A stretch of 64,000 nucleotides of DNA from Nocardioides sp. cx-173 (GTDB lineage Bacteria > Actinomycetota > Actinomycetes > Propionibacteriales > Nocardioidaceae), in the NCBI RefSeq assembly GCF_021117365.1, contig NZ_CP088262.1, forward strand, positions 1,364,001 to 1,428,000, given 5' to 3'. This document shows positions 4,634-55,095 of the stretch, piece by piece. The notes beneath the pieces are model-generated. The model saw only the letters and a list, made by a program, of their open reading frames with translations. It searched no databases and had not been told where the DNA came from. Position numbers and translations under genes: made by a program. Positions within the stretch are counted from its first letter, which is position 1. Every line of letters starts with the position of its first letter.

Positions 4634-5731
4634 ATGGCCTTCAGCACGATCACCGACCTCGACGTCGTCGCGACCCAGCAGCACAGCCGCGAGCTGAGGA
4701 GCCGCCTGCTCGCGACCGGCTCCTCGACCTACGTCACCGGCCCGTCGGGCGCCGGCAACGGGGAGCGGGTGCTCGTCCTGGGCGGCACCGGCTACATCGG
4801 CCGGGCGCTCGTCCCCGAGCTCGCGCGCCGCGGCTACCGCCCGGTCGTGCTCGCGCGCAGCGTCCAGGCCAAGAACGAGGCGGAGTACGCCGACGCCGAG
4901 GTGATCGTCGGTGACCCGACCCTGGCCGCCGACGTGCTGGCGGCCGTGGCCGCGGCACCCACCGACGTGGTGATCTCACTGCTCTCCGGCCGTCGCCCCA
5001 ACGACGCCGAGGAGTGCCGCCTGGTCGACCACGAGGCGGTGGGGAACGGCATCAGGGCCGCGGTCGCCCACGACGTGCGTCAGTTCATCCAGGTCAGCGA
5101 CTTCGGCGCCTACCGCCCCGAGCTGATCCCACAGGTCTACAAGCTCCAGGTCGAGGGCGAGCTGATGGGCCAGCACCACGGCGCGCTGCCGTGGACGATC
5201 GTGCGCCCGACGGCGTACTTCCCCTATCTGTCGGCCACCTTCGGCGACGTGAAGAACGGCCTGCCCTACCGGATCTTCGACCACGGCGAGCACAGCGTGG
5301 TCAACCCGATCGCCCGCGAGGACCTCGCCGAGTTCATCGTCAACCAGGTCCTGAACGACGATGCCCTCGGTCGGGTGCTCCCGGTCGGCGGCCCGTGGAC
5401 GGAGGACAACATGGTCACCCTCAAGGGCGCGGGCCAGATGATGTTCGACGTCACCGGCCGCGAGCCGCAGTGGGACGTCGTCACGCTCAAGGCCTGGGAC
5501 AAGAAGACCGCGCGCCTCGCCCGGCTCGGCAGGTTCAGCACGCAGCTCAAGCCCGTGGCCTTCTACCTCGAGGCGGCGAAGTACTGGTCGGTGGTCGACC
5601 ACGTCGCGCCGTCCTACGGCGAGCGCACGCTGCGCGGGTTCATGGAGCGGCTCAAGGACCGGGAGTTTCCGACGGGCAGCTTCCGGGAACGAATGAAGAG
5701 CGGCACGAACGCCATGCCGACCGACATCTGA
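4634..5731 (+). CDS. NAD(P)-binding reductase resembling divinyl chlorophyllide 8-vinyl-reductase (BciA/DVR)
   Basis: After a 45-residue lead the 365-aa protein has a classical nucleotide-binding start, VLVLGGTGYIGRALVPELARRGY, so it is an extended SDR/NAD(P)-binding protein. Blocks such as DVVISLLSGR, IVRPTAYFPYLSATFGDVKNG and GGPWTEDNMVTLKGAGQMMFDVTGREP follow the layout of BciA/DVR, where the later residues shape the substrate pocket. No other gene in the window makes bacteriochlorophyll, so the real substrate is probably different. It stands alone, 19 nt after yczE, with its own -10 box. Confidence 0.75.
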   Translation: MAFSTITDLDVVATQQHSRELRSRLLATGSSTYVTGPSGAGNGERVLVLGGTGYIGRALVPELARRGYRPVVLARSVQAKNEAEYADAEVIVGDPTLAADVLAAVAAAPTDVVISLLSGRRPNDAEECRLVDHEAVGNGIRAAVAHDVRQFIQVSDFGAYRPELIPQVYKLQVEGELMGQHHGALPWTIVRPTAYFPYLSATFGDVKNGLPYRIFDHGEHSVVNPIAREDLAEFIVNQVLNDDALGRVLPVGGPWTEDNMVTLKGAGQMMFDVTGREPQWDVVTLKAWDKKTARLARLGRFSTQLKPVAFYLEAAKYWSVVDHVAPSYGERTLRGFMERLKDREFPTGSFRERMKSGTNAMPTDI

Positions 5732-5809
5732 ACATCGCCCTCGGCGGGCATGTCAGACTCTGGCCCATGCGGCTCGCAGGAGCCCCCCGACGTCGCCCTG
5801 GAGATGCTC

Positions 5810-7051
5810 ATGACCAACCCCACCGGAGAACCCCAGGCCGCGGCCGCCGTCGCTCCGCTGGCCCCGCCCGACCAGGCGCTGACCCTCACCGCCCCCGAGG
5901 CCCCGGCGCTGGTGATCGAGACCCAGGCGCCCAAGATGGCGCCGCAGGTCTCGCCCGAGGCGATCCCCGAGCTCGACGGCAAGGTCGACTCCTTCATGAC
6001 CGCGCTCACCAGCACGACCGCGCGCAGCCCGGAGTTCGCCGCGCAGGCCGAGAGCGTGCGCACCATGGGCGACGCCGACATCCGCAAGGCCGCCGAGACC
6101 TCCAACCGGATGCTCAACCAGCCGGTCCGTGCCCTCAAGGAGGGCGGGCTCTCCCAGGGCTCGCAGGTCGGCCAGACCCTGCTCGAGCTGCGCCGCACGA
6201 TCGAGGACCTCGACCCGAGCGAGGCCAAGGGCGCCCGCAAGCTCATGGACTGGCTGCCGTTCGGCGACAAGGTGGAGGACTACTTCCGCAAGTACCAGTC
6301 CAGCCAGAGCCAGCTCAACGGCATCCTGCACAGCCTGCGCAACGGCCAGGACGAGCTGACCAAGGACAACGTCGCGCTCAACCTGGAGAAGACCAACCTG
6401 TGGTCGGTCATGGGCCGGCTCAACCAGTACGTCTACGTCGCCGAGCGCCTCGACGCCAAGCTGTCGGCCAAGATCGCCGAGCTCGAGCTCTCCGACCCCG
6501 AGGCGGCGAAGGCGCTCTCGCAGGACGTGCTGTTCTACGTGCGCCAGAAGCACCAGGACCTGCTGACCCAGCTCGCGGTGTCGATCCAGAGCTACCTCGC
6601 GATCGACATCATCATCAAGAACAACGTCGAGCTCATCAAGGGCGTCGACCGGGCCTCCACGACCACCGTCTCCGCGCTGCGTACGGCGGTCATCGTGGCG
6701 CAGGCGCTGGGCAACCAGAAGCTGGTGCTCGACCAGATCACGGCGCTCAACACCACGACGTCCGGGATGATCCAGCGCACCTCCGAGATGCTGCGCGAGA
6801 ACAGCGCGGCGATCCAGGAGCAGGCCGCCTCCTCGACGATCGGCATGGAGCAGCTGCAGGCGGCGTTCGCCAACATCTACGCGACCATGGACTCGATCGA
6901 CGACTTCAAGCTCAAGGCGCTCGACTCCATGTCGGCCACCATCGGCGTGCTCGAGGGCGAGGTCGTGAAGTCGCGTGAGTACCTCGAGCGGGTGCAGTCC
7001 CACGACGCGCGCAACTCGGCCGGCACGCTGGACCTGACCGACGTACGTTGA
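5810..7051 (+). CDS. telA: TelA-family protein (toxic anion resistance)
   Basis: The 413-aa, largely helical protein belongs to the TelA family, first linked to tellurite resistance and later found in general stress and phospho-signalling loci. The first 70 residues are Pro/Ala-rich and probably disordered. The rest has long amphipathic helices, with the family blocks LMDWLPFGDKVEDYFRKY and SYLAIDIIIKNNVELIKGVDRASTTTVSALRTAV. GGAG six nt before ATG 5810 sets the start; an upstream in-frame ATG at 5750 lacks such a site. It is the first gene of a ten-gene run, and its stop overlaps the TTG start of the next gene. Confidence 0.85.
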   Translation: MTNPTGEPQAAAAVAPLAPPDQALTLTAPEAPALVIETQAPKMAPQVSPEAIPELDGKVDSFMTALTSTTARSPEFAAQAESVRTMGDADIRKAAETSNRMLNQPVRALKEGGLSQGSQVGQTLLELRRTIEDLDPSEAKGARKLMDWLPFGDKVEDYFRKYQSSQSQLNGILHSLRNGQDELTKDNVALNLEKTNLWSVMGRLNQYVYVAERLDAKLSAKIAELELSDPEAAKALSQDVLFYVRQKHQDLLTQLAVSIQSYLAIDIIIKNNVELIKGVDRASTTTVSALRTAVIVAQALGNQKLVLDQITALNTTTSGMIQRTSEMLRENSAAIQEQAASSTIGMEQLQAAFANIYATMDSIDDFKLKALDSMSATIGVLEGEVVKSREYLERVQSHDARNSAGTLDLTDVR

Positions 7052-7578
7052 GCCTCAGGTCGTGGCTGAAGAGACGGCGCGCACCGGACGACGCGGCTCC
7101 GCCGGCGGTGCCGGCCGCGCCGACGGAGCAGGACATCCTGGCGTCGCTGAACCGGGTCAACGCGATGCTCACCGAGGGCAACGCGCCGCCGGTGGTGACC
7201 TCGCGGGTCATCCGGATCGCGCGGACGATCAACGACACCCTGCCCCGGCTGCGCCATCTCGGGCTGGGCAGCATGGAGAGCTACTCGGTCGTGGCGACCG
7301 CGACCGACTACCTGCCCGAGGCCGTCGGCGGCTACCTGCGCCTGCCGCGCGAGTGGGCCGACACCCGGCCGATCGACGGCTACAAGACCTCGCTGATGGT
7401 GCTCATCGACCAGCTCGAGCTGCTCGGCTCGACGATGGACAAGATCTTCGACGCGGCCAACCGCGCGGATGCCCAGGCGCTGCTGGCGCACGGCATGTTC
7501 CTCGAGAGCAGGTTCGGCCACTCCGGTGGCACCGACATGACTCTCGGCTCACCGGATGGGGGGTCCCCCGATGACTGA
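7048..7578 (+). CDS. Conserved protein of unknown function in the telA-pknG operon
   Basis: A 176-aa protein starting at TTG 7048, which overlaps the telA stop (TTGA). The first 24 residues are basic then Pro/Ala-rich (LRSWLKRRRAP), followed by a helical domain with LGLGSMESYSVVATATDYLPEAVGGYLRLP and a Gly/Asp-rich tail. No enzyme motif is visible. It occupies the place that XpaC-like partners have beside telA in other bacteria, but similarity to XpaC cannot be claimed from reading alone. The tight coupling to telA suggests the two act together. Confidence 0.75.
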   Translation: MSLRSWLKRRRAPDDAAPPAVPAAPTEQDILASLNRVNAMLTEGNAPPVVTSRVIRIARTINDTLPRLRHLGLGSMESYSVVATATDYLPEAVGGYLRLPREWADTRPIDGYKTSLMVLIDQLELLGSTMDKIFDAANRADAQALLAHGMFLESRFGHSGGTDMTLGSPDGGSPDD

Positions 7579-9097
7579 CGCGCTGCCCCTGACCGCCGCC
7601 CTCGACGCGCTGAGCGCCGCCGCCGCCGCGGCCGGCGTCGACACCGCGACCGCCCGCCGCGAGGGGGAGTGCCTGGCCGCGACGATCGCCGAGCCCGCGC
7701 GCGGCGCCTTCGTGGACTGGTCCGCGGCGACCGGGCGCGAGCGCTCCTCGGAGGACTTCATGGACGCCGCCTCGCGCGGGCGGCGCTACCGCTCGGCCCC
7801 CACGCCGACCATGAGCCAGCTCTCGCTGTCCGGCTCGGCCCACGCGCCGGCGTACGCCAAGGCGCTCTCGGACGTGGCGCTGGCCGCCGCGACCCTCGGC
7901 GAGGAGAACCCCCGCACCGTCGGCAACGCCGCGACCGCGGCCGCCGCCCAGCTGGGCGAGGCCCGCGCGGCGCCCACCCTGGACCTGCCGCCGGCGCGCG
8001 AGCCGGTCCCCGGCGTCGGCGACCACTTCCTCGCGCAGATGAGGGACCAGCTCACGACGGTCCAGCGCAACCTCGCGGGCCTCGACCTGCAGCAGGCCGG
8101 CGCGCGGCCCGAGCCCTCGCCGCCGGTGGCGGCGGCGCCACCGCCGGCCCCCGCCGAGCCCCAGCCCGAGGACCAGCCCGAGCCCGAGCCCGAGCCCAAG
8201 ACCGTCGAGGAGCTGCTGGCCGAGCTCGACGAGCTGGTCGGGCTGACCGAGGTGAAGGCCGAGATCCACCGGCAGGCGGCGATCCTGCGGGTGGAGGGGC
8301 TGCGCAAGGAGGCGGGGCTGTCCTCGCCGACGATCACCCGGCACATGATCTTCAACGGCAACCCCGGCACCGGCAAGACCACGGTGGCCCGGCTCGTGGC
8401 CGGCATCTACCGCGCCCTCGGGCTGCTGTCGAAGGGGCAGCTGGTCGAGGTCGACCGCTCCGAGCTGGTCGCGGGCTACCTCGGCCAGACCGCCATGAAG
8501 ACAGCCGAGGTCGTGGCGTCGGCGGAGGGCGGGGTGCTGTTCATCGACGAGGCCTACTCGCTCGCCGGCGACCAGTACGGCCAGGAGGCCATCGACACCC
8601 TGGTCAAGGAGATGGAGGACAAGCGCGACGACCTGGTCGTGATCGTGGCCGGCTACCCGGTCCCGATGGCGGTCTTCATCTCCCAGAACCCCGGCCTCGA
8701 GAGCCGCTTCCGCACCCAGATCGACTTCGCCGACTACACCGACGACGAGCTGGCGAGGATCTTCGGCGTGATGGCGGGTGCGGCGGAGTACGACGTGGAC
8801 GACGCGGTCCTCGATCGGCTGCGCGAGCTGCTGGCCGCGGTCGAGCGCGGGTCCAGCTTCGGCAACGCGCGCTACGTCCGCAACGTGCTCGAGGCCGCGA
8901 TCGGGCGCCACGCCTGGCGCCTGCGCGAGATCGAGACGCCGACGCTCGAGGAGCTGCGCACGCTGCACGCCGACGACCTGGACCAGGCCGTGCCCGTCGA
9001 GACGCCTGGTCCCTCGGCTCCTGAGGAACCACCCGACGGGCCGGCAGAGGCCGTCGCCTGGCCCGACGCCGCCCCGACCGAGGAGGAGCCCGCATGA
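7571..9097 (+). CDS. AAA+ ATPase of the CbbX/SpoVK/EccA type
   Basis: The N-terminal half (about residues 1-215) is Ala-rich and ends in a Pro/Glu-Pro linker. The C-terminal half is one AAA+ module: HMIFNGNPGTGKTTVARLVA (Walker A near residue 263), GVLFIDEAYSL (Walker B near 325), and the arginine-finger block NPGLESRFRTQIDF. The YLGQTAMKT and GNARYVRNVLE blocks are typical of the CbbX/CfxQ/SpoVK/EccA group, which remodel protein complexes. The ATG at 7571 gives 508 aa and an 8-nt overlap with the gene before. The target is unknown; within this operon it could remodel the TelA or kinase complex (inference). Confidence 0.88.
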   Translation: MTDALPLTAALDALSAAAAAAGVDTATARREGECLAATIAEPARGAFVDWSAATGRERSSEDFMDAASRGRRYRSAPTPTMSQLSLSGSAHAPAYAKALSDVALAAATLGEENPRTVGNAATAAAAQLGEARAAPTLDLPPAREPVPGVGDHFLAQMRDQLTTVQRNLAGLDLQQAGARPEPSPPVAAAPPPAPAEPQPEDQPEPEPEPKTVEELLAELDELVGLTEVKAEIHRQAAILRVEGLRKEAGLSSPTITRHMIFNGNPGTGKTTVARLVAGIYRALGLLSKGQLVEVDRSELVAGYLGQTAMKTAEVVASAEGGVLFIDEAYSLAGDQYGQEAIDTLVKEMEDKRDDLVVIVAGYPVPMAVFISQNPGLESRFRTQIDFADYTDDELARIFGVMAGAAEYDVDDAVLDRLRELLAAVERGSSFGNARYVRNVLEAAIGRHAWRLREIETPTLEELRTLHADDLDQAVPVETPGPSAPEEPPDGPAEAVAWPDAAPTEEEPA

Positions 9098-10398
9098 CCC
9101 AGGCCACACAAGGCCAGTCGGCGCCCGCGCCGGCGAGCGCCCCGGCCCACGTCCGGGGCAGCGTCCCGGCGAGCGCCGCGGCGCACGCCCCGGGACCGGC
9201 CGCCGGGGCGTCGACGGTCGAGGACACCCCGCGGCTGCTCAACCGGCTGCAGGCGCTGGCCGTCGCGGCCTGTGTCCTGTTCGGGCTGGTGGCCGCGCTG
9301 CTGCAGCTGCTCGCCTGGCAGGCCACCGGCCGCGCCGCCGACAACACCGAGCAGGTCGTGCGGGTCCAGCAGATCCAGTCCTCGCTGTTCCGCGCCGACG
9401 CCCTGGCCACCAACGCCTTCCTCGTCGGGGGCCTGGAGGACGCCGAGCAGCGCGCCGAGTACGACGACGCCATCGAGCAGGCGCTGCGCGGCATCGCGGG
9501 CGCCGCGGAGGCCCAGCCGGCCGACCGCAAGGTGCTGGCCGACCTCAACACCGAGGTGGCGGCGTACGCGTCGGGCATCACGCAGGCCCGGGACAACAAC
9601 CGGCAGGGCTTCCCGATCGGGGCGCAGTACCTCCGGGAGGCCGGGGCCGGCCTGCGCGCCGACGCCGTGCCGATCCTGCAGGCGCTCGTGGACGCCAACG
9701 CCGAGCGCGCCGACGAGGAGATGAACGGGCAGAACACCTTGCCGCTCCTGCTCGCGGGCGTCGCCGCGGTCGCCGTGCTGTGGTGGGTCAACCGTGAGCT
9801 CGCACGGCGCTTCCGGCGCCGTGTCAACGTCGGCCTGGCCGTGGCGGCACTCGCCATCACGCTGCTCACCCTGGTCGGGGCCGTGGTCAGCGCCGGCAAG
9901 TCCGGGGACAACGACGACCTCCGCGCCGGCAGCTTCGAGCGCGCGCTGCAGGAGTCGCGCGCCCGCACCGCCGCCAACGACGCGAAGGCGGAGGAGAGCC
10001 TGCGGCTGATCGCGCGGGGATCGGGCGCCGCGGCCGAGCCCCGGTGGGACGAGCGGGCGGAGATCGTCGAGGAGTCCGCCTCGGCCGACACGCTGGGGCG
10101 GTGGAGCGCCTACGCCGACAAGCACGCCGTGATCATCGAGACCGACGACGAGGGCGACTGGAGCGCCGCCGTCGACCTCGCCACCACCACGGAGCCCGGT
10201 AGCGCCAGCGCTGCCCTCACCGAGTTCGACCAGGCGTCGCAGGAGGTCGTGGCCCAGGCGGCCGACGAGACCTCCGACAGCCTGCGGTCGGGAGGCATCA
10301 CCGCGTGGATGCTCATCGTCGTCAGCCTGCTGGTGGGCCTCGGGTCGGCGGGAGCCGTCGCCTGGGGAGTCAACCAGCGGCGAAGGGAGTACGCATGA
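9094..10398 (+). CDS. glnX: GlnX-like four-helix membrane sensor
   Basis: This 434-aa protein has four hydrophobic helices, near residues 52-75, 217-233, 246-266 and 403-424. They enclose two long helical extracytoplasmic loops (about 76-215 and 267-400), the pattern of a sensory four-helix-bundle protein. It sits directly before the GlnH lipoprotein and two genes before pknG. In mycobacteria GlnX is the membrane protein that relays GlnH ligand binding to PknG, so GlnX is inferred from topology plus gene order, not sequence identity. ATGA overlaps link it to both neighbours. Confidence 0.75.
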   Translation: MTQATQGQSAPAPASAPAHVRGSVPASAAAHAPGPAAGASTVEDTPRLLNRLQALAVAACVLFGLVAALLQLLAWQATGRAADNTEQVVRVQQIQSSLFRADALATNAFLVGGLEDAEQRAEYDDAIEQALRGIAGAAEAQPADRKVLADLNTEVAAYASGITQARDNNRQGFPIGAQYLREAGAGLRADAVPILQALVDANAERADEEMNGQNTLPLLLAGVAAVAVLWWVNRELARRFRRRVNVGLAVAALAITLLTLVGAVVSAGKSGDNDDLRAGSFERALQESRARTAANDAKAEESLRLIARGSGAAAEPRWDERAEIVEESASADTLGRWSAYADKHAVIIETDDEGDWSAAVDLATTTEPGSASAALTEFDQASQEVVAQAADETSDSLRSGGITAWMLIVVSLLVGLGSAGAVAWGVNQRRREYA

Positions 10399-11378
10399 AC
10401 AGGCGCGCGCGCCCCCTGGCCGCCCTCGCGGTGCTCGCCCTCCTGCTCTCCGGCTGCGGCGGTTATGACGAGACGAAGGTCCAGGCCGAGCCGGACGGCA
10501 CGACGGCCCCACCACCGGCGGCGGTCACGCCGCCGGGGTGCCTCACCGACGAGAGCCCGACCCGCTCCTACGAGCCCACGGGCGCGCTGCCGGCACCGGG
10601 CGACCTCCCCTCGGGGAGCACCATGGCCGAGATCCGCCAGCGTGGCCGGCTGGTCGCGGGCGTCTCCGCCGACACCTACCTGCTGGCCTCCAACAACCCG
10701 TTCACCGGCCAGATCGAGGGCTTCGACATCGACATGGTCGAGCAGGTCGCCAAGGCGATCTTCGGCGACCGGTCGGCCTACGAGCTCAAGGTCATCAGTG
10801 CCGCCGACCGGCTGACGTCGCTGCAGGAGCGCGAGGTCGACATCGTCGTGCGCAACATGACGATCAACTGCGTCCGCTGGCAGGACATCGCGTTCTCCGC
10901 GGAGTACTACCGCTCCGGGCAGAAGATCCTGGTCCGCCAGGACCTGGCCGACCAGGGGGTCGACTCGGTGCCGGAGCTGGCCGGGGTCACCGTCTGCGCG
11001 CCGACCGGCACCTCGAGCCTGGAGAACGTCCGGGAGCTCGCGCCCGGCGCCTTCATCGAGGAGGCCGCCAACCACACCGGCTGCCTGGCGCTCTTCCAGC
11101 AGGGCGCGGTCGACGCGATCACCGGCGACGACACCGTGCTCGCCGGCCTGGCCGCCCAGGACCCGTACGCCGTCGTGCCCGAGCAGAAGGCGTTCACCGA
11201 GGAGCCGTACGGCATCGGCGTCCACGAGGACGACGTCGACCTGGTGCGCTTCGTCAACGGGGTGCTGGAGCGGATGCGCGCCGACGGCAGCTGGCAGGCC
11301 AGCTACGACCGCTGGCTCGCGCCGACGCTCGGCAAGGGCGGCGTCCAGCCGGCGCCGGTCTACGGCAGGACCACGTGA
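10395..11378 (+). CDS. glnH: GlnH-type amino-acid-binding lipoprotein
   Basis: The 327-aa product starts with a lipoprotein signal peptide whose lipobox LSGC places the lipidated Cys at 21. After a Thr/Pro-rich linker comes a periplasmic binding domain of the polar amino-acid class: IRQRGRLVAGVSADTYLL, GFDIDMVEQVAKAIFG and VDIVVRNMTINCVRWQDIAFS. No permease or ATPase gene is nearby, so this looks like a receptor rather than a transporter subunit. Mycobacterial GlnH beside pknG binds Asp/Glu and signals through GlnX, which fits the context here. Start by ATGA overlap; the stop overlaps the next GTG. Confidence 0.9.
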   Translation: MNRRARPLAALAVLALLLSGCGGYDETKVQAEPDGTTAPPPAAVTPPGCLTDESPTRSYEPTGALPAPGDLPSGSTMAEIRQRGRLVAGVSADTYLLASNNPFTGQIEGFDIDMVEQVAKAIFGDRSAYELKVISAADRLTSLQEREVDIVVRNMTINCVRWQDIAFSAEYYRSGQKILVRQDLADQGVDSVPELAGVTVCAPTGTSSLENVRELAPGAFIEEAANHTGCLALFQQGAVDAITGDDTVLAGLAAQDPYAVVPEQKAFTEEPYGIGVHEDDVDLVRFVNGVLERMRADGSWQASYDRWLAPTLGKGGVQPAPVYGRTT

Positions 11379-12505
11379 CGCTGACCGCGCCGCCCGCGCC
11401 GGGGGGGATCGGGCAGGCGCCGGAGCCGGCCGCGCTGCAGGCCTACCTCTCCGACCTGGAGGCCTGGGTCCGCGGCCGGCGCACGGAGCTCGACGAGCTG
11501 GACCAGGCGGCGCTCGCGGCCAACCGCGGCGCCGACGTCGCCTCCGACATGGCGCTCTCGCTGGCGCTGTGGAAGGCCGTCTCCGACCGCTACCAGCTGG
11601 TCTTCGCGACCTGGGACGGCGGCCGGGTCCTGCAGGCCGAGCGTGAGCGGATCTCCACCCTCGTCTGGGGACGGCTGGACGGCGCCAGCTCGCTGCCCGG
11701 CGGCCTGGTGGTCTCGCTGCCCGAGGCCTGCCGCCTCTCCGACGCGCTGGCCGGGCAGCTGCGCACCCGGCTCGCGCTGGTGCCCGGTGCCGACGCTGCC
11801 GCGGCGCGGATCAAGGACCTGCGCGCGCAGTGCGAGCGGCTGCGCGACCAGGTGGCGCTGGAGCCGGCCACGGGCCGTGACGCCGCCGTGCGCGAGCTCG
11901 CGGGACTGATGAGCCGCCTGGAGGTCGTCGCCGACAAGGCGCAGCGGGGCGCCGACGTCGGTGGGCTGCTCGGCCCGCTCGAGATCGACGCCACCCGCTT
12001 CGAGCGCGACCTGATCGTCGGCAACGCGCGCCGCCGCGAGGCTCGCGGCCAGGTGCAGCAGGCCCGCGAGCTGCGTGCCGACCTGGAGGCCCGCGAGGCC
12101 GCGCTCGCCCAGCTGGCCGAGACGTGCGTGCGCACCGTCGACCCGGCGCCCCGCTACGCCGTGCCCGACGTCGACGCCCTCGGCCCGATCCCCAACACCC
12201 CCGAGCAGATCGGGCCGTACCTGGCCCGCCTGGACCGGGTCGGTCAGGCGATGAGCCTGGCCCAGGAGCGGTACGCCGCCGCGCTGGCCGAGCGCGACGA
12301 CCTGGTCGCCCTGCTCGACGCCTACGCCGCGAAGGCCCGGGCGCTGGGCGTCGCCGAGCACGACGACCTGCGCGACAGCGAGCGCCTGGCCCGCCAGGTC
12401 CTGGCCCGCGAGCCCGCACCCATGGCGGTCTGCCGCCAGCTCGTCTCGACCTACCAGGCCTGGCTCACCCAGGCCCAGTCCGCCCACCAGCAGGAGACCG
12501 CATGA
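11375..12505 (+). CDS. Coiled-coil protein in the pknG operon
   Basis: GTG 11375 overlaps the glnH stop (GTGA) and gives 376 aa. The sequence is almost wholly helical with heptad-like Leu/Ala/Arg/Glu runs (RIKDLRAQCERLRDQVALE, RREARGQVQQARELRADLEAREAALAQL), so long coiled coils are likely. There is no signal peptide, membrane helix or catalytic motif. Lying exactly between the sensor and the kinase, it is a candidate adaptor or scaffold (inference). Its function is not recognised. Confidence 0.75.
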   Translation: MTLTAPPAPGGIGQAPEPAALQAYLSDLEAWVRGRRTELDELDQAALAANRGADVASDMALSLALWKAVSDRYQLVFATWDGGRVLQAERERISTLVWGRLDGASSLPGGLVVSLPEACRLSDALAGQLRTRLALVPGADAAAARIKDLRAQCERLRDQVALEPATGRDAAVRELAGLMSRLEVVADKAQRGADVGGLLGPLEIDATRFERDLIVGNARRREARGQVQQARELRADLEAREAALAQLAETCVRTVDPAPRYAVPDVDALGPIPNTPEQIGPYLARLDRVGQAMSLAQERYAAALAERDDLVALLDAYAAKARALGVAEHDDLRDSERLARQVLAREPAPMAVCRQLVSTYQAWLTQAQSAHQQETA

Positions 12506-14868
12506 GCACCTGCACCCAGCCCGGTTGCACGGGCACCATCGCCGACGGCTACTGCGACGTGTGCGGCATGGCCGCGGCGCCGGGAGCCTCCGCGGCGGCC
12601 GCCGTCTCGACCGGGACCCCGGCTACCGCCGCGCCGGCGGCCCCGAGCACACCCGTCGCCGACGGCTCGCCCTGCGGCCAGCCGGGCTGCCAGGGGACCA
12701 TCACCGACGGCTACTGCGACACCTGCGGCATGGCCGGCACGAGCGCCTCGAGCGCCGCACCGGCCGCCTTCGACGCCGACGCCGCGGTCTCCGCGCGCAC
12801 CTCCTCCACGCAGATCGAGTCGGCCGCCATCGGCTCGCGCCGCGCCGCCGGCACCGCCTCCACCCACCGCACCCGCGCCGGCTCGCAGCGGATGCGCGCC
12901 GCCCGGCTCGGCGCCGGCCTGACCGTCGTACCCCCGGCGCCGCCGGTCGACGCCAGCAAGGCGATCAACCCCGACCCGTCGGTGCCCGAAGACAAGCGGG
13001 TCTGCTCCAAGTGCGGCACCGAGATCGGCCGCTCCCGAGACGGTCGGCCCGGGCGCAGCGAGGGGTTCTGCCCGCAGTGCGGCCAGGAGTTCTCGTTCTC
13101 GCCCAAGCTGCAGTCCGGCGACCTGGTGGGCGGGCAGTACGAGGTCGCCGGGGCGATCGCCCACGGCGGCCTGGGCTGGATCTACCTCGCCAAGGACCGC
13201 AACGTCTCCAACCGCTGGGTCGTGCTCAAGGGCCTGCTCAACTCCGGCGACCCCGACGCCCTGGCCGCGGCCATCGCCGAGCAGCAGTTCCTCGCCCAGG
13301 TCGAGCACCCCCTGATCGTCGAGATCTACAACTTCGTCACCCACGAGGGTGCCGGCTACATCGTCATGGAGTACGTCGGCGGCAAGTCGCTCAAGCAGAT
13401 CCTCAAGCAGCGGATGAAGGACAACCACGGCGCCTACGACCCGCTCCCGGTCGACCAGGCGCTGGCCTACCTGCTCGAGGTGCTGCCGGCGTTCCAGTAC
13501 CTGCACGACCTCGGACTCGTCTACTGCGACTTCAAGCCCGACAACCTGATCCAGGTGGGCGACGCGGTCAAGCTCATCGACCTCGGCGGCGTGCGTCGGA
13601 TCGACGACCAGGAGTCGGCCATCTACGGCACCGTCGGCTACCAGGCCCCGGAGGTCGCCGAGGTCGGGCCGAGCGTCGCCTCCGACATCTACACGATCGG
13701 GCGCACCCTGGTCGTGCTGTGCATGGAGTTCCGCGGCTACCAGGGCACCTACCTGCACACGCTGCCACCGCCGGAGTCGACTCCGCTGTTCGCCGAGCAC
13801 GACTCGCTCTACTGGCTGATCGCCAAGTGCTGCGCCACCGACCCGGCCGACCGGTTCGCGTCGGCCGACGAGCTGCGCATCCAGCTGCTCGGGGTGCTCC
13901 GCGAGGTGGTCGCGGCGCGCACCAAGGGCACTGCCCTGACCTCGGCGGCGTCGGTGCTCTTCGAGTCGCCGTCGACGTCGGGGTCCGCGCTCGAGTGGTC
14001 GCACCTGCCGGAGCTGCGCGTGGACACCACCGATGCCCAGTACTCCTGGCTCTCCGGCATCGGCGCGGAGGACCCGCGGCAGCGGCTCGAGGACCTGGAG
14101 GCGGCACCGGAGCACACCGCCGAGGTGTGGCTGGCCCGCGCGCAGACGGCCCTCGAGCTCGACCAGCCGGCACAGGCCCGCGGCTACGCCGCCGACCTCC
14201 TCGCCCAGGACCCCTGGGAGTGGCGCGCGCTGTGGATGGACGGGCTGGCCGCCCTGCAGCTGCAGGAGTGGGACAGCGCCGCGGCGTCGTTCAACGCGGT
14301 CTACCAGCAGGTGCCCGGTGAGCTCGCCCCCAAGCTGGCGCTCGCGCTGGCCTGTGAGCGGGGCGGTCAGGGGGAGGTCGCGGAGCGGCTCTACGCCACC
14401 TGCGCCGCCACCGACGCGACGTACGTCGCGCCCTCGTCGTTCGGGATGGCGCGCGTCCGCGCCCAGCGCCAGGACCTGCAGGGCGCCGTGGCGGCGCTCG
14501 ACATGGTGCCCAAGACCAGCCGCGGTTACCCCGAGAGCCGCCAGCTGCGCGCCGACGTGCTGCTGTCGGGCGGGGCCGCCGACCTCGCCCTGCTCGACCA
14601 GGCCATGCGCTCGATCGAGTCGGTGCCGATGGACCCGCGCACCCGGGAGACCTACGCGGTGCGGATCCTCGAGCAGGCGCTCGAGGTGGTGCTGCGGGGC
14701 GCGCCGAGCCCGGATGCGAGGGTAGGCGCTCACCCGGCCACCGAGCCGGGGCTGCGGGACGCGCTCGAGCGCTCGTACCGCGCCCTGGCCCGCGACGCCA
14801 GCGAGCTGCGACACCGCGTCGAGCTCGTCAACCAGGCCAACGCCGTACGGATGTGGACGCTGACATGA
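12502..14868 (+). CDS. pknG: Serine/threonine protein kinase PknG with three N-terminal zinc modules and TPRs
   Basis: PknG is a soluble kinase that in mycobacteria and corynebacteria tunes 2-oxoglutarate/glutamate metabolism. In this 788-aa protein there are two short Cys4 ribbons (C4, C9, C18, C21 and C58, C63, C72, C75) and a rubredoxin-like site (C168, C171, C190, C193). Next is a kinase domain with glycine loop AHGGLGWIYLA, Lys243, catalytic YCDFKPDN (Asp343) and metal-binding DLG (Asp360). The HRD arginine is replaced, as in other PknG. A TPR-like C-terminal half follows. The two extra ribbons go beyond the mycobacterial layout. ATGA overlaps join it to its neighbours. Confidence 0.95.
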   Translation: MSTCTQPGCTGTIADGYCDVCGMAAAPGASAAAAVSTGTPATAAPAAPSTPVADGSPCGQPGCQGTITDGYCDTCGMAGTSASSAAPAAFDADAAVSARTSSTQIESAAIGSRRAAGTASTHRTRAGSQRMRAARLGAGLTVVPPAPPVDASKAINPDPSVPEDKRVCSKCGTEIGRSRDGRPGRSEGFCPQCGQEFSFSPKLQSGDLVGGQYEVAGAIAHGGLGWIYLAKDRNVSNRWVVLKGLLNSGDPDALAAAIAEQQFLAQVEHPLIVEIYNFVTHEGAGYIVMEYVGGKSLKQILKQRMKDNHGAYDPLPVDQALAYLLEVLPAFQYLHDLGLVYCDFKPDNLIQVGDAVKLIDLGGVRRIDDQESAIYGTVGYQAPEVAEVGPSVASDIYTIGRTLVVLCMEFRGYQGTYLHTLPPPESTPLFAEHDSLYWLIAKCCATDPADRFASADELRIQLLGVLREVVAARTKGTALTSAASVLFESPSTSGSALEWSHLPELRVDTTDAQYSWLSGIGAEDPRQRLEDLEAAPEHTAEVWLARAQTALELDQPAQARGYAADLLAQDPWEWRALWMDGLAALQLQEWDSAAASFNAVYQQVPGELAPKLALALACERGGQGEVAERLYATCAATDATYVAPSSFGMARVRAQRQDLQGAVAALDMVPKTSRGYPESRQLRADVLLSGGAADLALLDQAMRSIESVPMDPRTRETYAVRILEQALEVVLRGAPSPDARVGAHPATEPGLRDALERSYRALARDASELRHRVELVNQANAVRMWTLT

Positions 14869-16025
14869 CCGATGCCCCCTGCCCCTCCTGCGGCTCCGCG
14901 ATGCCCGCGGGCACCCTGTTCTGCGAGCACTGCGGCGCCTCGCTGGGCGCCGCGCCCGTTGCCGAGGGCGCGCGCCCGGTGTCGCTGCAGGGCGCCGTGG
15001 CGCCCGGCGCGAGCACCCCGATCGACGACGTGGCGCCGATCAGCGCCGCCACCCACGCCACCGGCGGGGCGGCCGTGGCGACCGCGCCGGGGCGGGTCCC
15101 GTGCCGCAGCTGCGGCGGCGTGGTCGGTCCCGACGGCTACTGCGAGCAGTGCGGCACCAAGGCTCCGAGCGAGCGCGACCACTTCCGCGAGGCGCCGGCC
15201 GACTGGGTCGCGGGCGTCTGCGACCGCGGCATCCGCCACAGCCGCAACGAGGACGCGATGGCGCTGCTGGCCTCGCCGACCCCGGGGGAGCGGGCGGTGC
15301 TGCTGGTGCTGGACGGTGTCTCCAACACCGACGACTCCCACCTCGCCTCGCTGGCCGGCGCCCGCGCCGCGCGCGAGGTGCTGCGCACCCCGCTCCCGCA
15401 GGGGATGGGCACGCCCGAGAGCCGGCTCGCCGCCGTGACCAAGGTCTTCAGCGAGGCGGTCCTGGCCGCCAACGAGGCCGTCGTCGCGACGACTCCCGCC
15501 GGCTCGCCCAACCCACCGTCGGCGACGTTCGTGTGCGTGGTCGTCGAGGGCTCGATGCTGTCGTTCGCCAACCTCGGCGACTCGCGCGCCTACTGGCTGC
15601 CCGACGGGGCCTCCGGTGTCCAGCTCTCCGTCGACGACTCCGTGGCCCAGCAGCTGATCGCGGCGGGCACGCCGCGCCAGCAGGCCGAGACCTCGGCGCA
15701 GGCGCACGCGATCACCAAGTGGCTGGGCCGCGACGCGCGCGACCTCACGCCGCGAGTGGGCCAGCTCGAGGTCACCGGGCCCGGCTGGGTGCTGGTCTGC
15801 TCCGACGGGCTGTGGAACTACGCCTCGGAGCCCGACGCGCTGGTCGCCCAGGTCGCGGCCAGCGGGGCCACCGCTCCGGACGCCCTCGCGCTCGCGCTGA
15901 CCGACTGGGCCAACGCCCAGGGCGGCATCGACAACATCACCGTCACGCTGGCACGACTGGACGGGCCCCCCGCGGGGCACAATGCTGCCCAGTCCGCCGT
16001 ACCCCAGGAGGAGACCCATGGCTGA
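14865..16025 (+). CDS. PP2C-type protein phosphatase with two zinc ribbons
   Basis: The 386-aa protein carries two Cys4 ribbons (C6, C9, C20, C23 and C80, C83, C93, C96; the second reads GYCEQCG) and then a PP2C domain. PP2C metal and fold motifs are in order: CDRGIRHSRNEDA (Asp120), VLDGVS (Asp150), NLGDSRAYW, CSDGLW and GGIDNITVTLA. It should remove phosphate from Ser/Thr in a Mn/Mg-dependent way and would oppose PknG, whose stop codon overlaps its ATG. Sharing the ribbon type with PknG and the FHA protein suggests a common docking partner (inference). No membrane anchor is present. Confidence 0.92.
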   Translation: MTDAPCPSCGSAMPAGTLFCEHCGASLGAAPVAEGARPVSLQGAVAPGASTPIDDVAPISAATHATGGAAVATAPGRVPCRSCGGVVGPDGYCEQCGTKAPSERDHFREAPADWVAGVCDRGIRHSRNEDAMALLASPTPGERAVLLVLDGVSNTDDSHLASLAGARAAREVLRTPLPQGMGTPESRLAAVTKVFSEAVLAANEAVVATTPAGSPNPPSATFVCVVVEGSMLSFANLGDSRAYWLPDGASGVQLSVDDSVAQQLIAAGTPRQQAETSAQAHAITKWLGRDARDLTPRVGQLEVTGPGWVLVCSDGLWNYASEPDALVAQVAASGATAPDALALALTDWANAQGGIDNITVTLARLDGPPAGHNAAQSAVPQEETHG

Positions 16026-17295
16026 GTTCACCGCCGCCGTCTACCAGAACGAGTTCCTGCCCGACGGCGGGACGGACGTCAACGCGATCGTCACGGTCAC
16101 GTGCGCCGGAGCCGGGACGGCCGGGCAGTCCGGTGGTGGCTCGGCCGGCGAGATCATCCTCGTGGACACCTCCGGGTCCATGGGGCCGCAGACGATGGCC
16201 GCCGCCAAGGAGGCCGCCCAGGCCGCCATCGCCGAGATCGTCGACGGCACCTGGTTCGCCGTCGTCGCCGGCTCCGACCGCGCGATGCTGGCCTACCCAC
16301 AGGTGTCCTCCGGGCCGGGCATGGTCCAGGCCGACGCGCGCACCCGCCAGGAGGCGGCCGCCGCGGTGGGCCGCTTCGTCGGCAGCGGCGGCACCGCGAT
16401 CAGCACCTGGCTCGACCTGGCCGGCTCCCTCTTCGCCTCGGTGCCCGAGGTGACCCAGCGGCACGCCATCCTGCTCACCGACGGCGAGAACCGCGAGCAG
16501 CCCGGCGCGCTCGACGCCGCGATCCGCCGGGCCACCGGCGTCTTCCAGTGCGACTGCCGTGGCGCGGGCACCGACTGGCAGGTCGAGGAGATCCGACGCA
16601 TCGCCCAGGCGCTGCTCGGCACCGTCGACATCATCCCGGAGCCCTCGCAGATGCAGGCGCAGTTCCAGGAGATGATGCGCACCTCCATGTCGCGCGGCGT
16701 CGCCGACGCGCAGCTGCGGCTGTGGACGCCGCAGGGCGCGCAGGTCCTGTTCGTCCGGCAGGTGTCGCCGACCGTCGAGGACCTCACCGACCGTCGCGTC
16801 GAGGTCAACCCGCTCACGGGCGCCTACCCCACCGGGGCCTGGGCCGACGAGTCGCGCGACTACCACGTCGCCGTCCGCGTGGCCGCCAAGGCGATCGGGC
16901 AGGAGCAGCTGGCCGCCCGCGTCCAGCTCGCGCTGGGCGACAACGTCGTGGCCCAGGCGCTGGTCAAGGCCACCTGGTCCAACAACTCCGAGCTCACCAC
17001 GCGCATCGACCAGCAGGTCGCCCACTACACCGGGCAGACCGAACTGGCCTCGATGATCCAGGAGGGGCTGGCGGCCAAGGCCGCGGGCGACGAGGCCACG
17101 GCCACGACCAAGCTCGGCCGCGCCGTCCAGCTGGCCGCGGAGACCGGCAACGACGAGGCCACCTCCAAGCTCCGCAAGGTCGTCGACATCACCGACGAGC
17201 ATGAGGGCACCGTGCGGCTCAAGGCCGCGATCGCGAAGGCCGACGAGATGGCGCTCGACACCGCGTCGACCAAGACGACCCGGATCAAGAAGTGA
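16018..17295 (+). CDS. VWA-domain protein (TerY-like)
   Basis: A 425-aa cytosolic protein with a von Willebrand A domain in its first half. The metal-ion-dependent adhesion site is complete: DTSGSMG (Asp50, Ser52, Ser54), a Thr in SGGTAIST and the Asp in LLTDGEN. The C-terminal part is beta-rich and then helical, with Ala/Glu/Lys repeats that could form a helical hairpin. VWA proteins next to PP2C and kinase genes define TerY-P-type phospho-signalling triads. AGGAGGA 6 nt before ATG 16018 sets the start; it overlaps the phosphatase gene by 8 nt, and its stop overlaps the GTG of the FHA gene. Confidence 0.9.
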   Translation: MAEFTAAVYQNEFLPDGGTDVNAIVTVTCAGAGTAGQSGGGSAGEIILVDTSGSMGPQTMAAAKEAAQAAIAEIVDGTWFAVVAGSDRAMLAYPQVSSGPGMVQADARTRQEAAAAVGRFVGSGGTAISTWLDLAGSLFASVPEVTQRHAILLTDGENREQPGALDAAIRRATGVFQCDCRGAGTDWQVEEIRRIAQALLGTVDIIPEPSQMQAQFQEMMRTSMSRGVADAQLRLWTPQGAQVLFVRQVSPTVEDLTDRRVEVNPLTGAYPTGAWADESRDYHVAVRVAAKAIGQEQLAARVQLALGDNVVAQALVKATWSNNSELTTRIDQQVAHYTGQTELASMIQEGLAAKAAGDEATATTKLGRAVQLAAETGNDEATSKLRKVVDITDEHEGTVRLKAAIAKADEMALDTASTKTTRIKK

Positions 17296-18011
17296 GCGTC
17301 TGCCCGGCGGGCCACGACACCGCCGCCACCGACTACTGCGACGTGTGCGGGATCGTGATGCCCGCGGACGGGGCCGACGCGACCGGCACGCTCCCGGTGG
17401 TCGAGCCGGCCGCGCCGGACACGGCGGCGTGCCCGCACTGCTCGGCGGCCAACCCGCCCAACGCCCTGTTCTGCGAGGCCTGCGGCTACGACTTCACGAC
17501 CGGGACGCTCCCGCGCCCGCTCAACCCGCTCGACGTGTCGTCCCCGTCCGCCCCGGCCCCTGCGGCCGCCGCGCCCGCCGCGGACGCCAACCCCGCGCCG
17601 GCGCCGGCGGACTCCTGGGTCGCGGAGGTCTGGATCGACCCCGACTGGTACGCCGACCAGAAGAGCACCGACCCGCTGCCCTCGCCCGGCCTGCCGAGCG
17701 TCGTACCGCTGAAGCACACGTCGGTCCTCATCGGCCGCGCCTCGCGCAGCCGCAACATCACCCCGGACATCGACCTGTCCTCCGACAACGGCATCAGCCG
17801 CCGCCACGCCCAGCTCACCACCGACGGCACCCGCTGGTTCGTCGAGGACCTCGGGTCCTCCAACGGCACCTACGTCGGCGGCTCCGTCGGCCCGCTCCCG
17901 AGCACGCCGGTCCCGCCCGGGCAGAAGCAGGAGATCGCCTCGGACGACCGGGTCTACGTCGGCGCCTGGACCCGCATCGTCGTCCGGAGGGCGACCGACG
18001 GCGAGGTCTGA
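17292..18011 (+). CDS. FHA-domain protein with two zinc ribbons
   Basis: The 239-aa product has an N-terminal ribbon reading DYCDVCG (C16, C19, with C4 and perhaps H8), a second Cys4 ribbon (C47, C50, C61, C64), a Pro/Ala linker and a C-terminal FHA domain. FHA landmarks are LIGRASRSRNITPDIDL, GISRRHAQL and EDLGSSNGTYV, the phosphothreonine-binding loops. It is the last gene of the operon and is expected to bind phosphorylated partners made by PknG. It lacks the N-terminal ETTS phosphorylation motif of GarA/OdhI, so it is not simply that PknG substrate. GTG 17292 overlaps the VWA stop. Confidence 0.9.
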   Translation: MSVCPAGHDTAATDYCDVCGIVMPADGADATGTLPVVEPAAPDTAACPHCSAANPPNALFCEACGYDFTTGTLPRPLNPLDVSSPSAPAPAAAAPAADANPAPAPADSWVAEVWIDPDWYADQKSTDPLPSPGLPSVVPLKHTSVLIGRASRSRNITPDIDLSSDNGISRRHAQLTTDGTRWFVEDLGSSNGTYVGGSVGPLPSTPVPPGQKQEIASDDRVYVGAWTRIVVRRATDGEV

Positions 18012-18015
18012 CCGG

Positions 18016-18582
18016 TCAGCGCTTGGTGGCCACGATCGTGCTGGCGTCGGGGGCGACCATCACCTCGACGGCGGTGAAGCGCTCGTCGGTGAGCCAGCGC
18101 TCGCGCAGGGTGTCGACCCGGCCGCCGCTGACGGGGGGCCACATCTCGCAGGGGACGAAGTCGTCGAGGACCACGATGCCGCCGTCCTCGACCAGGTCGG
18201 CGACGGCGTCGACGCCCACCTCGTTGGGCTGGCCGGCGTCGAGGAACAGCAGCGAGAAGGGGCCCTTGTCCAGCAGCGTGGACCAGTCGGCGGCCAGCAC
18301 CTCGACCTGCGGGTCGTCGGAGAAGATCGCGGCCGCGGCCGTGGCCAGCTTGGCGTCGAGCTCGGCGGTCACGATCCGGGCGTCGCCGCGGACTCCGGAG
18401 CGCAGCCAGGCGGTGCCGACGCCGCAGCCGGTGCCGAACTCCGCCATCGTGCCGGACCGGGTCGCGGCCAGCATGGCGAGCAGCCGGCCGGTCTCGTTGC
18501 GGCAGAACGAGACGTAGCCGGCTTTGCGGGAGACGGCGAAGGCGCGGCTCACCACGTCGGGAAGCTCAGGTGGGGCGCTCAT
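18016..18582 (-). CDS. SAM-dependent O-methyltransferase-like protein
   Basis: A 188-aa class I methyltransferase: the SAM-binding motif I is MAEFGTGCGVGTAWL, the acidic ribose-binding motif is IVTAELDAK, and the motif IV/V region is SLLFLDAGQPNEVG followed by GGIVVLDDFVP. The arrangement follows the O-methyltransferase/YrrM group, but the substrate cannot be read. It converges on the FHA gene with a 4-nt gap and is transcribed away from the leuB leader. No ribosome binding site is obvious before ATG 18582. Confidence 0.85.
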   Translation of the reverse strand: MSAPPELPDVVSRAFAVSRKAGYVSFCRNETGRLLAMLAATRSGTMAEFGTGCGVGTAWLRSGVRGDARIVTAELDAKLATAAAAIFSDDPQVEVLAADWSTLLDKGPFSLLFLDAGQPNEVGVDAVADLVEDGGIVVLDDFVPCEMWPPVSGGRVDTLRERWLTDERFTAVEVMVAPDASTIVATKR

Positions 18583-18666
18583 GTGGGGAGTCTTTCATCT
18601 TGGGACGAGCGTCTCGACATGTGACCAGTTCCGGCCAACCGGTGGCCGCGCCGTCACGTCGTCCCT

Positions 18667-18915
18667 TAGTCTCGCCTCACCATGCGGAGCGTTTTCGTAC
18701 TTATCGTGCGCCGCGGCGAGGCCAAGCAGTAATCCACTGCACATAGAGGCCACCTCGCCGCGGTGAGCGGCGTTGTGCGGTCTCTTCCCTCGTCTCTCGC
18801 TCCGCCGCAGGATCCCGATCAGCGTTCGCGCGATCCGCATCCTGCTCGGTCACGCATCTCCCACGCGATCCGTGGGTCCCGCCTCTCCTGCGGCGGAGCG
18901 CAGACGGTCCGTCTG
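18667..18915 (+). promoter_or_regulatory. Structured leader RNA candidate before the 41-aa gene and leuB
   Basis: A -10 box TAGTCT (18667-18672) precedes a micropeptide frame. An 11-bp perfect inverted repeat CCGCGGCGAGG (18711-18721)/CCTCGCCGCGG (18753-18763) surrounds its stop codon. Next, a 14-bp perfect repeat GCTCCGCCGCAGGA (18799-18812)/TCCTGCGGCGGAGC (18886-18899) would close a domain of about 70 nt that itself contains CCCAC-N7-GTGGG (18860-18876). A last hairpin, CAGACG-GTC-CGTCTG, lies at 18901-18915. No T-run follows, so if it regulates, it does so without a classic terminator. The repeats are seen; a regulatory RNA is inference. Confidence 0.55.
18682..18732 (+). CDS. Candidate leader micropeptide rich in branched-chain residues
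   Basis: ATG 18682 opens a 16-codon frame, MRSVFVLIVRRGEAKQ, ending at TAA 18730-18732. It begins 9 nt after the TAGTCT -10 box, so it would be at the very 5' end of the transcript. The run V-F-V-L-I-V has five branched-chain codons out of six, and the stop lies within an 11-bp hairpin. Both are features of translated attenuators. The frame is short enough to arise by chance. Confidence 0.4.
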   Translation: MRSVFVLIVRRGEAKQ

Positions 18916-18954
18916 ACCTTCCGTCCCGACCGATCCAGAACCAGGAGCAGCGAC

Positions 18955-19080
18955 ATGTACGACATGTACCCCGAGTGGGGCCCGGCCCAGCACCACCCTG
19001 AGAACCCGCGCAGCCACGAGGCGGTCCAAGCCTCGCTTGACCTGCGAGACAATGGCGGTCAGCGCCCCGACGACAACTAG
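18955..19080 (+). CDS. Small protein of 41 residues, unknown function
   Basis: ATG 18955 follows an excellent AGGAG site with 7-nt spacing, and the frame ends at TAG 19078-19080. The product starts [18 protein letters not shown] and has a helical, charged second half ([15 protein letters not shown]). It has no membrane helix or signal peptide. It lies between the structured leader and leuB and ends 10 nt before the leuB start codon. The strong ribosome binding site makes it likely to be a real gene. The family is not recognised. Confidence 0.6.
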
Positions 19081-27160: not shown

Positions 27161-27199
27161 CGCGGCCTGTCGCGGCGGCGGGGTTCCGGGGGACACGGG

Positions 27200-27205
27200 T
27201 AGATT
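27200..27205 (+). promoter_or_regulatory. -10 box TAGATT of a leaderless kinase gene
   Basis: TAGATT is followed by 7 nt and then the GTG start at 27213; no ribosome binding site is present. Confidence 0.55.
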
Positions 27206-27212
27206 CGTCCCT

Positions 27213-39406: not shown

Positions 39407-39507
39407 GCCGCAACAGTACGAGCCGGCGCCGACATCCGCGTCCGCTCAGTACCGTGGCAGCGAAAACCGGGTAGGTCGACGTCGGTGGTGCGAGAGAGGA
39501 TCGAGGG

Positions 39508-54926: not shown

Positions 54927-54930
54927 CGAG

Positions 54931-54953
54931 ATCCCGGTGGAGACCGGGATTTT
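54931..54953 (+). terminator. Hairpin terminator after tRNA-Gln
   Basis: Stem ATCCCGGT (54931-54938) with ACCGGGAT (54943-54950), a GGAG loop, and a short TTT tail. Confidence 0.6.
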
Positions 54954-55090: not shown

Positions 55091-55095
55091 CAGCA

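Follow-up and report, generated by a model that had tools for sequence, protein, structure and literature searches.

A probable conserved actinobacterial operon linking a GlnX-GlnH-PknG signaling block to TelA and a TelA-partner gene

The window analyzed here is a 64,000-nucleotide stretch of Nocardioides sp. cx-173, whose 4.45 Mb genome is a single contig, and our subject is the run of ten genes at positions 5810-18011. We think it fairly probable that these genes form a conserved actinobacterial signaling operon, in which the lipoprotein GlnH and the membrane transducer GlnX provide an input, and a core of the kinase PknG, a coiled-coil-like protein (CC6), a VWA protein and an FHA protein is tied to TelA and the product of the second gene (g2). 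All ten are in-frame open reading frames (ORFs, as called in the window) on the plus strand, with ATG, GTG or TTG starts and TGA stops. As noted in a preliminary description of this stretch, the genes overlap: all nine junctions do so, seven by 4 nt and two by 8 nt. The genes are as follows.

5810-7051, + strand: telA, TelA/YaaN family, 413 aa; PF05816 at 314 bits (cut-off 30), E 1.4e-93, model positions 3-332 of 332
7048-7578, + strand: g2, putative TelA-partner protein, 176 aa, TTG start
7571-9097, + strand: AAA+ ATPase, 508 aa, SpoVK/EccA/CbbX-like with an additional N-terminal domain; PF00004 and AAA_lid_6
9094-10398, + strand: glnX, GlnX-family membrane transducer, 434 aa; four membrane helices by eye
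10395-11378, + strand: glnH, SBP_bac_3 lipoprotein, 327 aa; lipobox-like stretch by eye
11375-12505, + strand: CC6, coiled-coil-like protein, 376 aa; candidate PknG adaptor
12502-14868, + strand: pknG, 788 aa; N-terminal zinc ribbons, rubredoxin, Hanks kinase and TPR
14865-16025, + strand: PP2C phosphatase, 386 aa; PF13672 (PP2C_2), N-terminal double zinc ribbon PF12773
16018-17295, + strand: VWA protein, 425 aa; PF13519 and VWA_3_C PF18571
17292-18011, + strand: FHA protein, 239 aa; PF00498, N-terminal zinc ribbon PF13240

Within the order, the two halves of this unit occur together in most sampled genomes that have either. In the order sample (196 genomes, scored for co-occurrence of the PknG TPR domain and TelA), PknG is found in 85 genomes and TelA in 92; both are present in 84, PknG alone in one, TelA alone in eight, and neither in 103 (Fisher p 9e-45, with kinship ignored). 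In 82 of the 84 the two genes lie within 12 kb on one contig, so this genome comparison does not bear out a chance neighborhood in a single strain. The unlinked two are G463, with the genes on two of about 260 contigs, and G402 (family f85), whose locus L281 reads PknG-PP2C-VWA-FHA-GlnX with no adjoining TelA (G, L and f numbers are our handles for genomes, loci and families). Among the eight TelA-only genomes, six have a TelA that is divergent and scores weakly (69-94 bits), and the TelA operon of G399 (L280) is of the SBP-VWA type described below.

The named TelA loci (the best 80 of at least 524 confirmed relatives, taken with 10 kb of flank and mostly ending before FHA) come from Nocardioides, Pimelobacter, Kribbella, Janibacter, Micropruina, Propionicimonas, Microlunatus, Kineosporia and others. 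Pimelobacter simplex has the operon as far as VWA in L122 and as far as PP2C in L130, both to the limit of the DNA retrieved. Where at least 8 kb follows TelA, PknG is present in 61 of 64 loci; in the other three, the AAA+ gene or the sequence just ahead of it is interrupted by a 100-N scaffold gap. The AAA+ and glnX genes overlap by 4 or 1 nt in 59 of 62 loci, counted with the start nearest the previous stop. The earlier proposal that one unit joins GlnX-GlnH-PknG with TelA, AAA+, PP2C, VWA and FHA thus holds far beyond this strain. Phycicoccus elongatus (L157/L214), Nostocoides jenkinsii (L176/L215) and Tetrasphaera australiensis (L178/L216) were considered as cases in which split TelA and PknG halves are retained together, and were rejected. 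On the TelA side (L157, L176 and L178) a 100-N scaffold gap falls within or just ahead of the AAA+ gene; L214 and L215 each have one in the early part of their AAA+ gene, and in L216 there are seven gaps. An assembly artefact is therefore the most likely cause of the split; the gaps themselves are probably due to a linker region that assembles badly in these drafts.

Trees of both proteins, made by a quick method and midpoint-rooted, are consistent with a single origin of the linkage. In the PknG tree (121 rows), the TelA-linked rows (68 of 68) make up one side of a branch, 68 of the 121 rows, with an SH-aLRT support of 100. In the TelA tree (67 rows, of which L139, L148, L149 and L177 are short contigs on which PknG was not seen), the operon TelAs given form one branch (support 99) together with L201, L241 and the three scaffold-gapped loci. 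With the TelA-linked PknGs in one group, a single joining of TelA-g2-AAA+ to an older GlnX-GlnH-CC-PknG-PP2C-VWA-FHA block is probable. In L149, TelA-g2 is followed without a gap by an ORF that we take to be a xylulokinase. As a separate observation, L174 carries the title Streptomyces sp. SID13031 but falls with Kribbella in the PknG and TelA trees alike, and its name is probably wrong.

A tie between TelA-g2 and the kinase core is suggested by loci that have lost other parts. L278 (G513, a 2.0 Mb genome) reads TelA-g2-GlnX-CC6-PknG-PP2C-VWA-FHA, with the AAA+ and GlnH genes gone. In L279 (G522, 2.2 Mb), L295 (G659) and L296 (G660), CC6 and the kinase are fused in one gene. L279 reads TelA-g2-(CC6::kinase)-VWA-FHA, its first three junctions overlapping by 1, 4 and 4 nt, and the 454-aa fusion consists of the N-terminal part of CC6 (hidden Markov model (HMM) positions 2-216) and then the PknG kinase (HMM positions 201-464), without zinc ribbons, rubredoxin or TPR. 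L295 also reads TelA-g2-fusion-VWA-FHA, and keeps the zinc ribbons and part of the TPR. L296 reads g2-fusion-VWA-FHA to the contig end, with TelA beyond the contig; it has zinc ribbons, and its TPR is unmatched. In the fusions there is no match to the stretch of the PknG profile ahead of the kinase where the rubredoxin would lie (with a Pfam check for L279 only). The family HMMs find no AAA+, GlnX, GlnH or PP2C-domain match in the fetched stretches of these three loci; in L279 an ORF lying 4 kb upstream is matched once by the PP2C and FHA models, through a zinc ribbon alone. The FHA genes of all three match from profile position 91 at the earliest, i.e., without the zinc ribbon. When the fusion is used as the query against 198 family genomes, 95 have a match and at least three have fusions. 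Among the matches listed, its halves match separate genes of relatives, CC6 with query positions 1 to about 212 and the PknG kinase from 213 on. Gene fusion is classic evidence for two proteins acting together. Since these operons give up sensor, phosphatase and ATPase but retain TelA-g2, kinase, VWA and FHA, TelA-g2 appears to belong with the kinase core and not with the sensor alone. The sensor thus looks like a detachable input, and the pattern suggests that the TelA pair and the kinase act as one machine. The proposed wiring to TelA is strengthened by these reduced operons with their CC6-kinase fusion.

The sensor also occurs in a shortened form. GlnX is found without GlnH in twelve loci, with a gap of 6-12 bases between GlnX and CC6 in ten of them (measured between the stop codon of GlnX and the first CC6 base in the alignment), so GlnH appears dispensable where GlnX stays. 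The PknGs of these twelve loci belong to one 13-row clade of the PknG tree that includes L192, in which a 314-aa ORF in the place of GlnX was read by eye as a half-length GlnX.

The PknG block is also found without TelA. In a class sample of 246 genomes, 90 have a match in a search with the PknG TPR domain, and 60 PknG neighborhoods chosen from these were annotated with HMMs of the ten window proteins, which were seeded from the window and iterated on the same 60 neighborhoods. TelA (E <=0.001) is found in 45 of the 246 genomes, and near PknG in 8 of the 45. The complete ten-gene set is present in 7 of the 60 neighborhoods (five from the same genus, G326 from the same order and G156 from the same class). 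Presence within the genus is patchy (6 of 14 genomes in the PknG TPR search). Neighborhood counts are given as best family per ORF; counting any HMM match adds one FHA each in f61 and f62, and includes zinc-ribbon matches of the FHA model on other genes. We infer that f3 is Streptomyces-like, f4 mycobacteria-like and f62 Frankia-like. Three families have the block without TelA, g2 and AAA+. The main f3 loci have GlnX, GlnH, CC6, PP2C, VWA and FHA, all in 10 of 10. The ten f61 loci have GlnX in 10, GlnH in 9, PP2C in 8, VWA in 9 and FHA in 8, with GlnX-GlnH lying behind FHA in eight; in the 19 f62 loci, some of them cut by contig ends, the corresponding numbers are 19, 18, 10, 12 and 11. Of the 9 loci that are second f3 copies, 5 have VWA and none has PP2C, FHA or GlnH. 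In distant families CC6 is matched only weakly (about 1e-7 to 1e-23), and composition alone may produce matches between coiled coils. In f4, GlnX-GlnH-PknG stands alone in 20 of 22 loci and PknG alone in 2, and none of the 22 has PP2C, VWA, FHA, CC6 or TelA. The earlier view that the unit goes beyond the mycobacterial locus is supported by these mycobacteria-like loci for these five components, but PP2C, VWA and FHA beside PknG are common in other actinobacterial families without TelA, and are not peculiar to this system. A loss in f4 is a parsimony guess, because the f4/f3 join in the PknG tree is flagged as a long-branch join. In eight f62 PknG loci (L063, L065, L068, L071, L072, L075, L077 and L078), extra or oppositely oriented GlnX-GlnH pairs lie next to PknG.

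Gene 2, listed in the preliminary description as an unknown protein, can be placed in a family. A profile comparison between g2 and the TelA-partner family, made without shared rows, gives E 1e-9 and a probability of 96; another comparison, at E 6e-42, is partly circular, as the profile already contained the partner rows L204, L205 and L206. An HMM of eight operon g2 proteins matches 17 partner genes at 1.2e-8 or better (best 1.5e-32), with others weak or unmatched. In 23 of 24 TelA loci away from PknG, a small gene of the g2 family adjoins TelA, and in 11 of the 24 the set is joined by an SBP_bac_11/VWA-type gene. The latter operons (L204, L205, L240 and L247-L254) have the order TelA, SBP_bac_11/VWA-type gene, partner, and by eye the partner has a hydrophobic N-terminal part; Pfam finds the SBP domain in L204, and VWA alone in L205. 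By eye, the hydrophobic N-terminal stretch found in its relatives is missing from g2, which opens with a short basic/aromatic motif. XpaC-type genes (PF10112) lie beside TelA or within 1.5 kb of it in the L200, L202 and L203 genomes, that of L203 below the cut-off. An assignment of g2 to XpaC by Pfam was rejected: eight members have no PF10112 match at E up to 10 (HMMER filters drop most matches above about 0.1), and hhalign to XpaC gives E 0.44 and 0.03 only. The partner family as a whole aligns with XpaC in register, and weakly (E 7.6e-4, probability 25). From these profile comparisons, g2 is a predicted TelA partner that is distantly XpaC-like.

The PknG domains are all above their Pfam cut-offs (PF16919 81.8, PF00069 102.8 and PF16918 180.4 bits), and the rubredoxin cysteines align with those of M. 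tuberculosis PknG (MtbPknG; PDB 2pzi, E 7.6e-138). There are two GYCxxCG motifs; the ribbon motifs precede the kinase domain, and the TPR comes after it. N. lijunqiniae has the closest PknG (92%) and the closest TelA (95%). The AAA+ protein falls below the curated equivalog cut-offs for SpoVK (TIGR02881; 279.9 vs 422.95), EccA (237.1 vs 466.65) and CbbX (236.4 vs 459.25); by these scores it is placed in the SpoVK/EccA/CbbX superfamily, yet is none of these three. GlnX scores 243.2 bits with NF058618 (cut-off 250) and 90.9 with the equivalog NF041460 (cut-off 780), and PP2C scores 94.7 bits with NF033484, under its cut-off. The VWA protein matches general VWA models and VWA_3_C, with no TerY-named model among its Pfam, NCBIfam and PHROGs matches. 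For g2 and CC6 no Pfam or NCBIfam family is matched, and PDB sequence searches with TelA, CC6 and g2 give no credible match. The active-site motifs of kinase, PP2C, AAA+, VWA and FHA appear intact by eye in the translations.

The likely ligand can be narrowed from GlnH. Its best PDB match is M. tuberculosis GlnH (MtbGlnH; 6h2t, E 8e-64), in which S164, R169 and D250 contact the ligand backbone, and R147, T162 and W232 the Asp/Glu side chain (PMC6069109). Among 58 aligned TelA-linked GlnH proteins longer than 230 aa, every one of the 58 retains all the amino/carboxyl contacts (S or T at 164, R169 and D250), and the ligand is likely an alpha-amino acid. R147 is likewise retained in all 58. Position 162 has N in 54 proteins and T in 2, and position 232 has H in 35, D in 14, N in 7, I in 1, L in 1 and W in none. 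The window GlnH has R, N and H at 147, 162 and 232, and the GlnH of the ten main f3 loci keeps T162 and has Q at 232. The preliminary description refers to Asp/Glu sensing by the mycobacterial module; by the contacts listed above, such sensing is not predicted here, as nearly every GlnH of the clade has replacements at two of the three side-chain contacts.

These observations can be put together in a mechanism whose biochemical steps, phosphorylation targets, ligand, envelope role and AAA+ and PP2C action we infer. By homology with the GlnH-GlnX-PknG sensor model (PMC6069109, PMC8546545), GlnH would bind a small amino-acid-like ligand outside the cell, and GlnX would relay the ligand state inward and contact the PknG TPR domain. 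The conserved gene order, the reduced operons and the gene fusion suggest that PknG works with CC6, VWA and FHA in a core tied to TelA-g2. Active PknG would phosphorylate itself and its partners, and the FHA protein (and VWA) may assemble on phosphorylated partners and switch TelA-g2, a putative membrane-associated pair whose role would be to strengthen or remodel the cell envelope. PP2C would remove the phosphates, and the AAA+ ATPase may disassemble the complex. In Listeria, disruption of the TelA relative lmo1967 raises sensitivity to nisin and tellurite (PMC12791056, citing Collins 2010). More tentatively, the PknGs of the clade might be phospho-switches of a TelA-partner membrane machine, in which the ligand state of GlnH-GlnX would set TelA-g2 envelope assembly via CC6, VWA and FHA, and the three-gene mycobacterial and corynebacterial pathway would be a stripped-down remnant of a bigger phospho-signaling apparatus that included a phosphatase, an adaptor, VWA and FHA.

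Several observations weigh against a core that is firmly tied to TelA-g2. All three fusions come from one genus-level group (g214), from assemblies of 70, 170 and 270 contigs with completeness of 98, 96 and 71. L295 retains part of the TPR though GlnX and GlnH were not found there, so sensor loss and TPR loss are not strictly coupled, and the zinc ribbons of the kinase persist in L295 and L296, where PP2C is missing. Between g2 and XpaC proper there is a weak link at best (hhalign E 0.03-0.44). G489 (L277) has GlnX, PknG, PP2C and FHA without TelA, and with no GlnH, CC6 or VWA match, and in G133 (L201) TelA-AAA+ persists without g2 or PknG; with these exceptions, the TelA-PknG tie is not absolute. 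Finally, GarA/OdhI, the metabolic target considered next, occurs in the genus.

It is unlikely, in our view, that GlnX-GlnH-PknG here controls 2-oxoglutarate metabolism via GarA/OdhI, with PP2C, VWA, FHA, TelA, g2 and AAA+ as accessories or passengers. PknG does retain rubredoxin, kinase and TPR and its strong match to MtbPknG, the three-gene form makes up nearly all f4 loci, and a GarA/OdhI homologue is found in 16 of 16 genomes searched, with or without PknG (best matches 141-190 bits, cut-off 200). That of the window genome lies at C1:2169770, 0.8 Mb from the operon. With GarA/OdhI present, a metabolic output is possible, but it leaves the joint coming and going of PknG and TelA unexplained. 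GarA is equally present in 8 same-genus sample genomes without PknG, and its Thr-containing N-terminal stretch is alike by eye with or without PknG (read in 14 of the 16 genomes and in L236, so in all but L233, the copy of the window genome). The reduced operons, moreover, lose the sensor and retain TelA-g2, VWA and FHA, and GlnH is without two of the three Asp/Glu side-chain contacts.

We give little credence to a switch of the TerY-P kind (kinase-PP2C-VWA) for stress or defence, with GlnH-GlnX as one of many interchangeable sensors and with defence, not envelope care, as the response. The adjoining kinase, PP2C and VWA genes with their zinc ribbons would fit such a switch, as would the patchy distribution in the genus, and TerY-P triads and actinobacterial kinase-PP2C-VWA sets have been described for conflict systems (PMC11090510, PMC7159879). 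However, the PADLOC matches shown for PknG cover the kinase domain, AAA+ is matched only weakly, and at E 0.001 there is no match for the other eight proteins; Pfam and NCBIfam scans find no nuclease or helicase among the ten genes, and the zinc ribbons are N-terminal. That two independent transcription units adjoin by chance or through a shared chromosomal position is highly improbable. TelA pairs and PknG blocks do each stand alone in other families, but against this are the linkage in 82 of 84 order-sample genomes, the AAA+/glnX overlaps in 59 of 62 loci (subject to the choice of start noted above), and the reduced operons, which retain both halves.

An upstream NAD(P)-binding gene (4634-5731) was tried as a member and rejected; it recurs in only 2 of 87 other TelA loci, so the unit begins at TelA. 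A sigma-70 scan of 5400-19000 finds no promoter-like site (0.2 expected), which carries little weight for such genomes. At the other end, a convergent Methyltransf_24 ORF (18016-18582, - strand, E 4e-6) ends 4 bases past the FHA stop codon. A second Ser/Thr kinase ORF lies about 9 kb downstream of the operon (26937-28832, + strand; PF00069 E 1.3e-33, PknG HMM 7e-71). Elsewhere in the window, a low-GC stretch at 38158-40424 (0.618 at 38001-40000, the lowest of 32 windows) has two divergent ORFs, each with a YLDxN-type motif, and is perhaps a small acquired islet, and at 54855-55091 a tRNA-Gln(ctg) adjoins a tRNA-Glu(ctc).

The unit resembles several known systems in part. It has the same three genes, in the same order, as the GlnX-GlnH-PknG module of mycobacteria and corynebacteria (PMC6069109, PMC9769921, PMC8546545), with the same rubredoxin, kinase and TPR in PknG and a GlnH closest in the PDB to MtbGlnH. 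It differs from this module in having seven more genes, with CC6 between GlnH and PknG, N-terminal zinc ribbons on PknG, replaced T162 and W232 in GlnH, and a GlnX that is under the NF058618 cut-off and far under that of NF041460. The TerY-P triad consists of a TerY-like VWA protein, PP2C and a Ser/Thr kinase with a C-terminal zinc ribbon (PMC11090510, citing Anantharaman 2012), and some CoCoNuT extensions also bear a SpoVK-type AAA+ with VWA proteins (PMC11090510). In the window the kinase, PP2C and VWA genes are likewise side by side (12502-17295) and have zinc ribbons. These ribbons, however, are N-terminal and not C-terminal; the kinase is PknG-type with a C-terminal TPR, there is a dedicated membrane sensor, and TelA-g2 replaces nucleases. 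Like the TelA-XpaC pair (YaaN/XpaC; Listeria lmo1966-1967, PMC12791056), the unit has a PF05816 TelA and an adjacent partner whose family aligns weakly with XpaC; unlike it, g2 has no PF10112 match, the order is telA and then partner, and the pair is joined to kinase genes. The operons of other actinobacteria with TelA, an SBP_bac_11/VWA lipoprotein and a partner also couple TelA and a g2-family partner to a solute-binding/VWA-type gene, but there SBP and VWA are in one gene, and the matches listed for those stretches include no kinase, phosphatase, FHA or AAA+. In the excerpts of open-licence PMC literature we found no TelA-PknG join, although Figure 2B of PMC6069109 (STRING, pknG region) may show PP2C, VWA or FHA neighbors. 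The parts are known singly, and the joined unit, its clade and the reduced forms appear undescribed.

The finding bears on both halves of the unit. PknG has been studied in depth, yet according to PMC9769921 the contacts between GlnH and GlnX and between GlnX and PknG still await demonstration. The block described here brings CC6 as a candidate adaptor, a dedicated phosphatase, and two partners, VWA and FHA, that the three-gene loci do not have. We know of no account of how the stress protein TelA works; it gains a testable upstream route, with kinase, phosphatase and outside ligand within one operon. The reduced operons are natural deletions that hint at which parts may depend on which.

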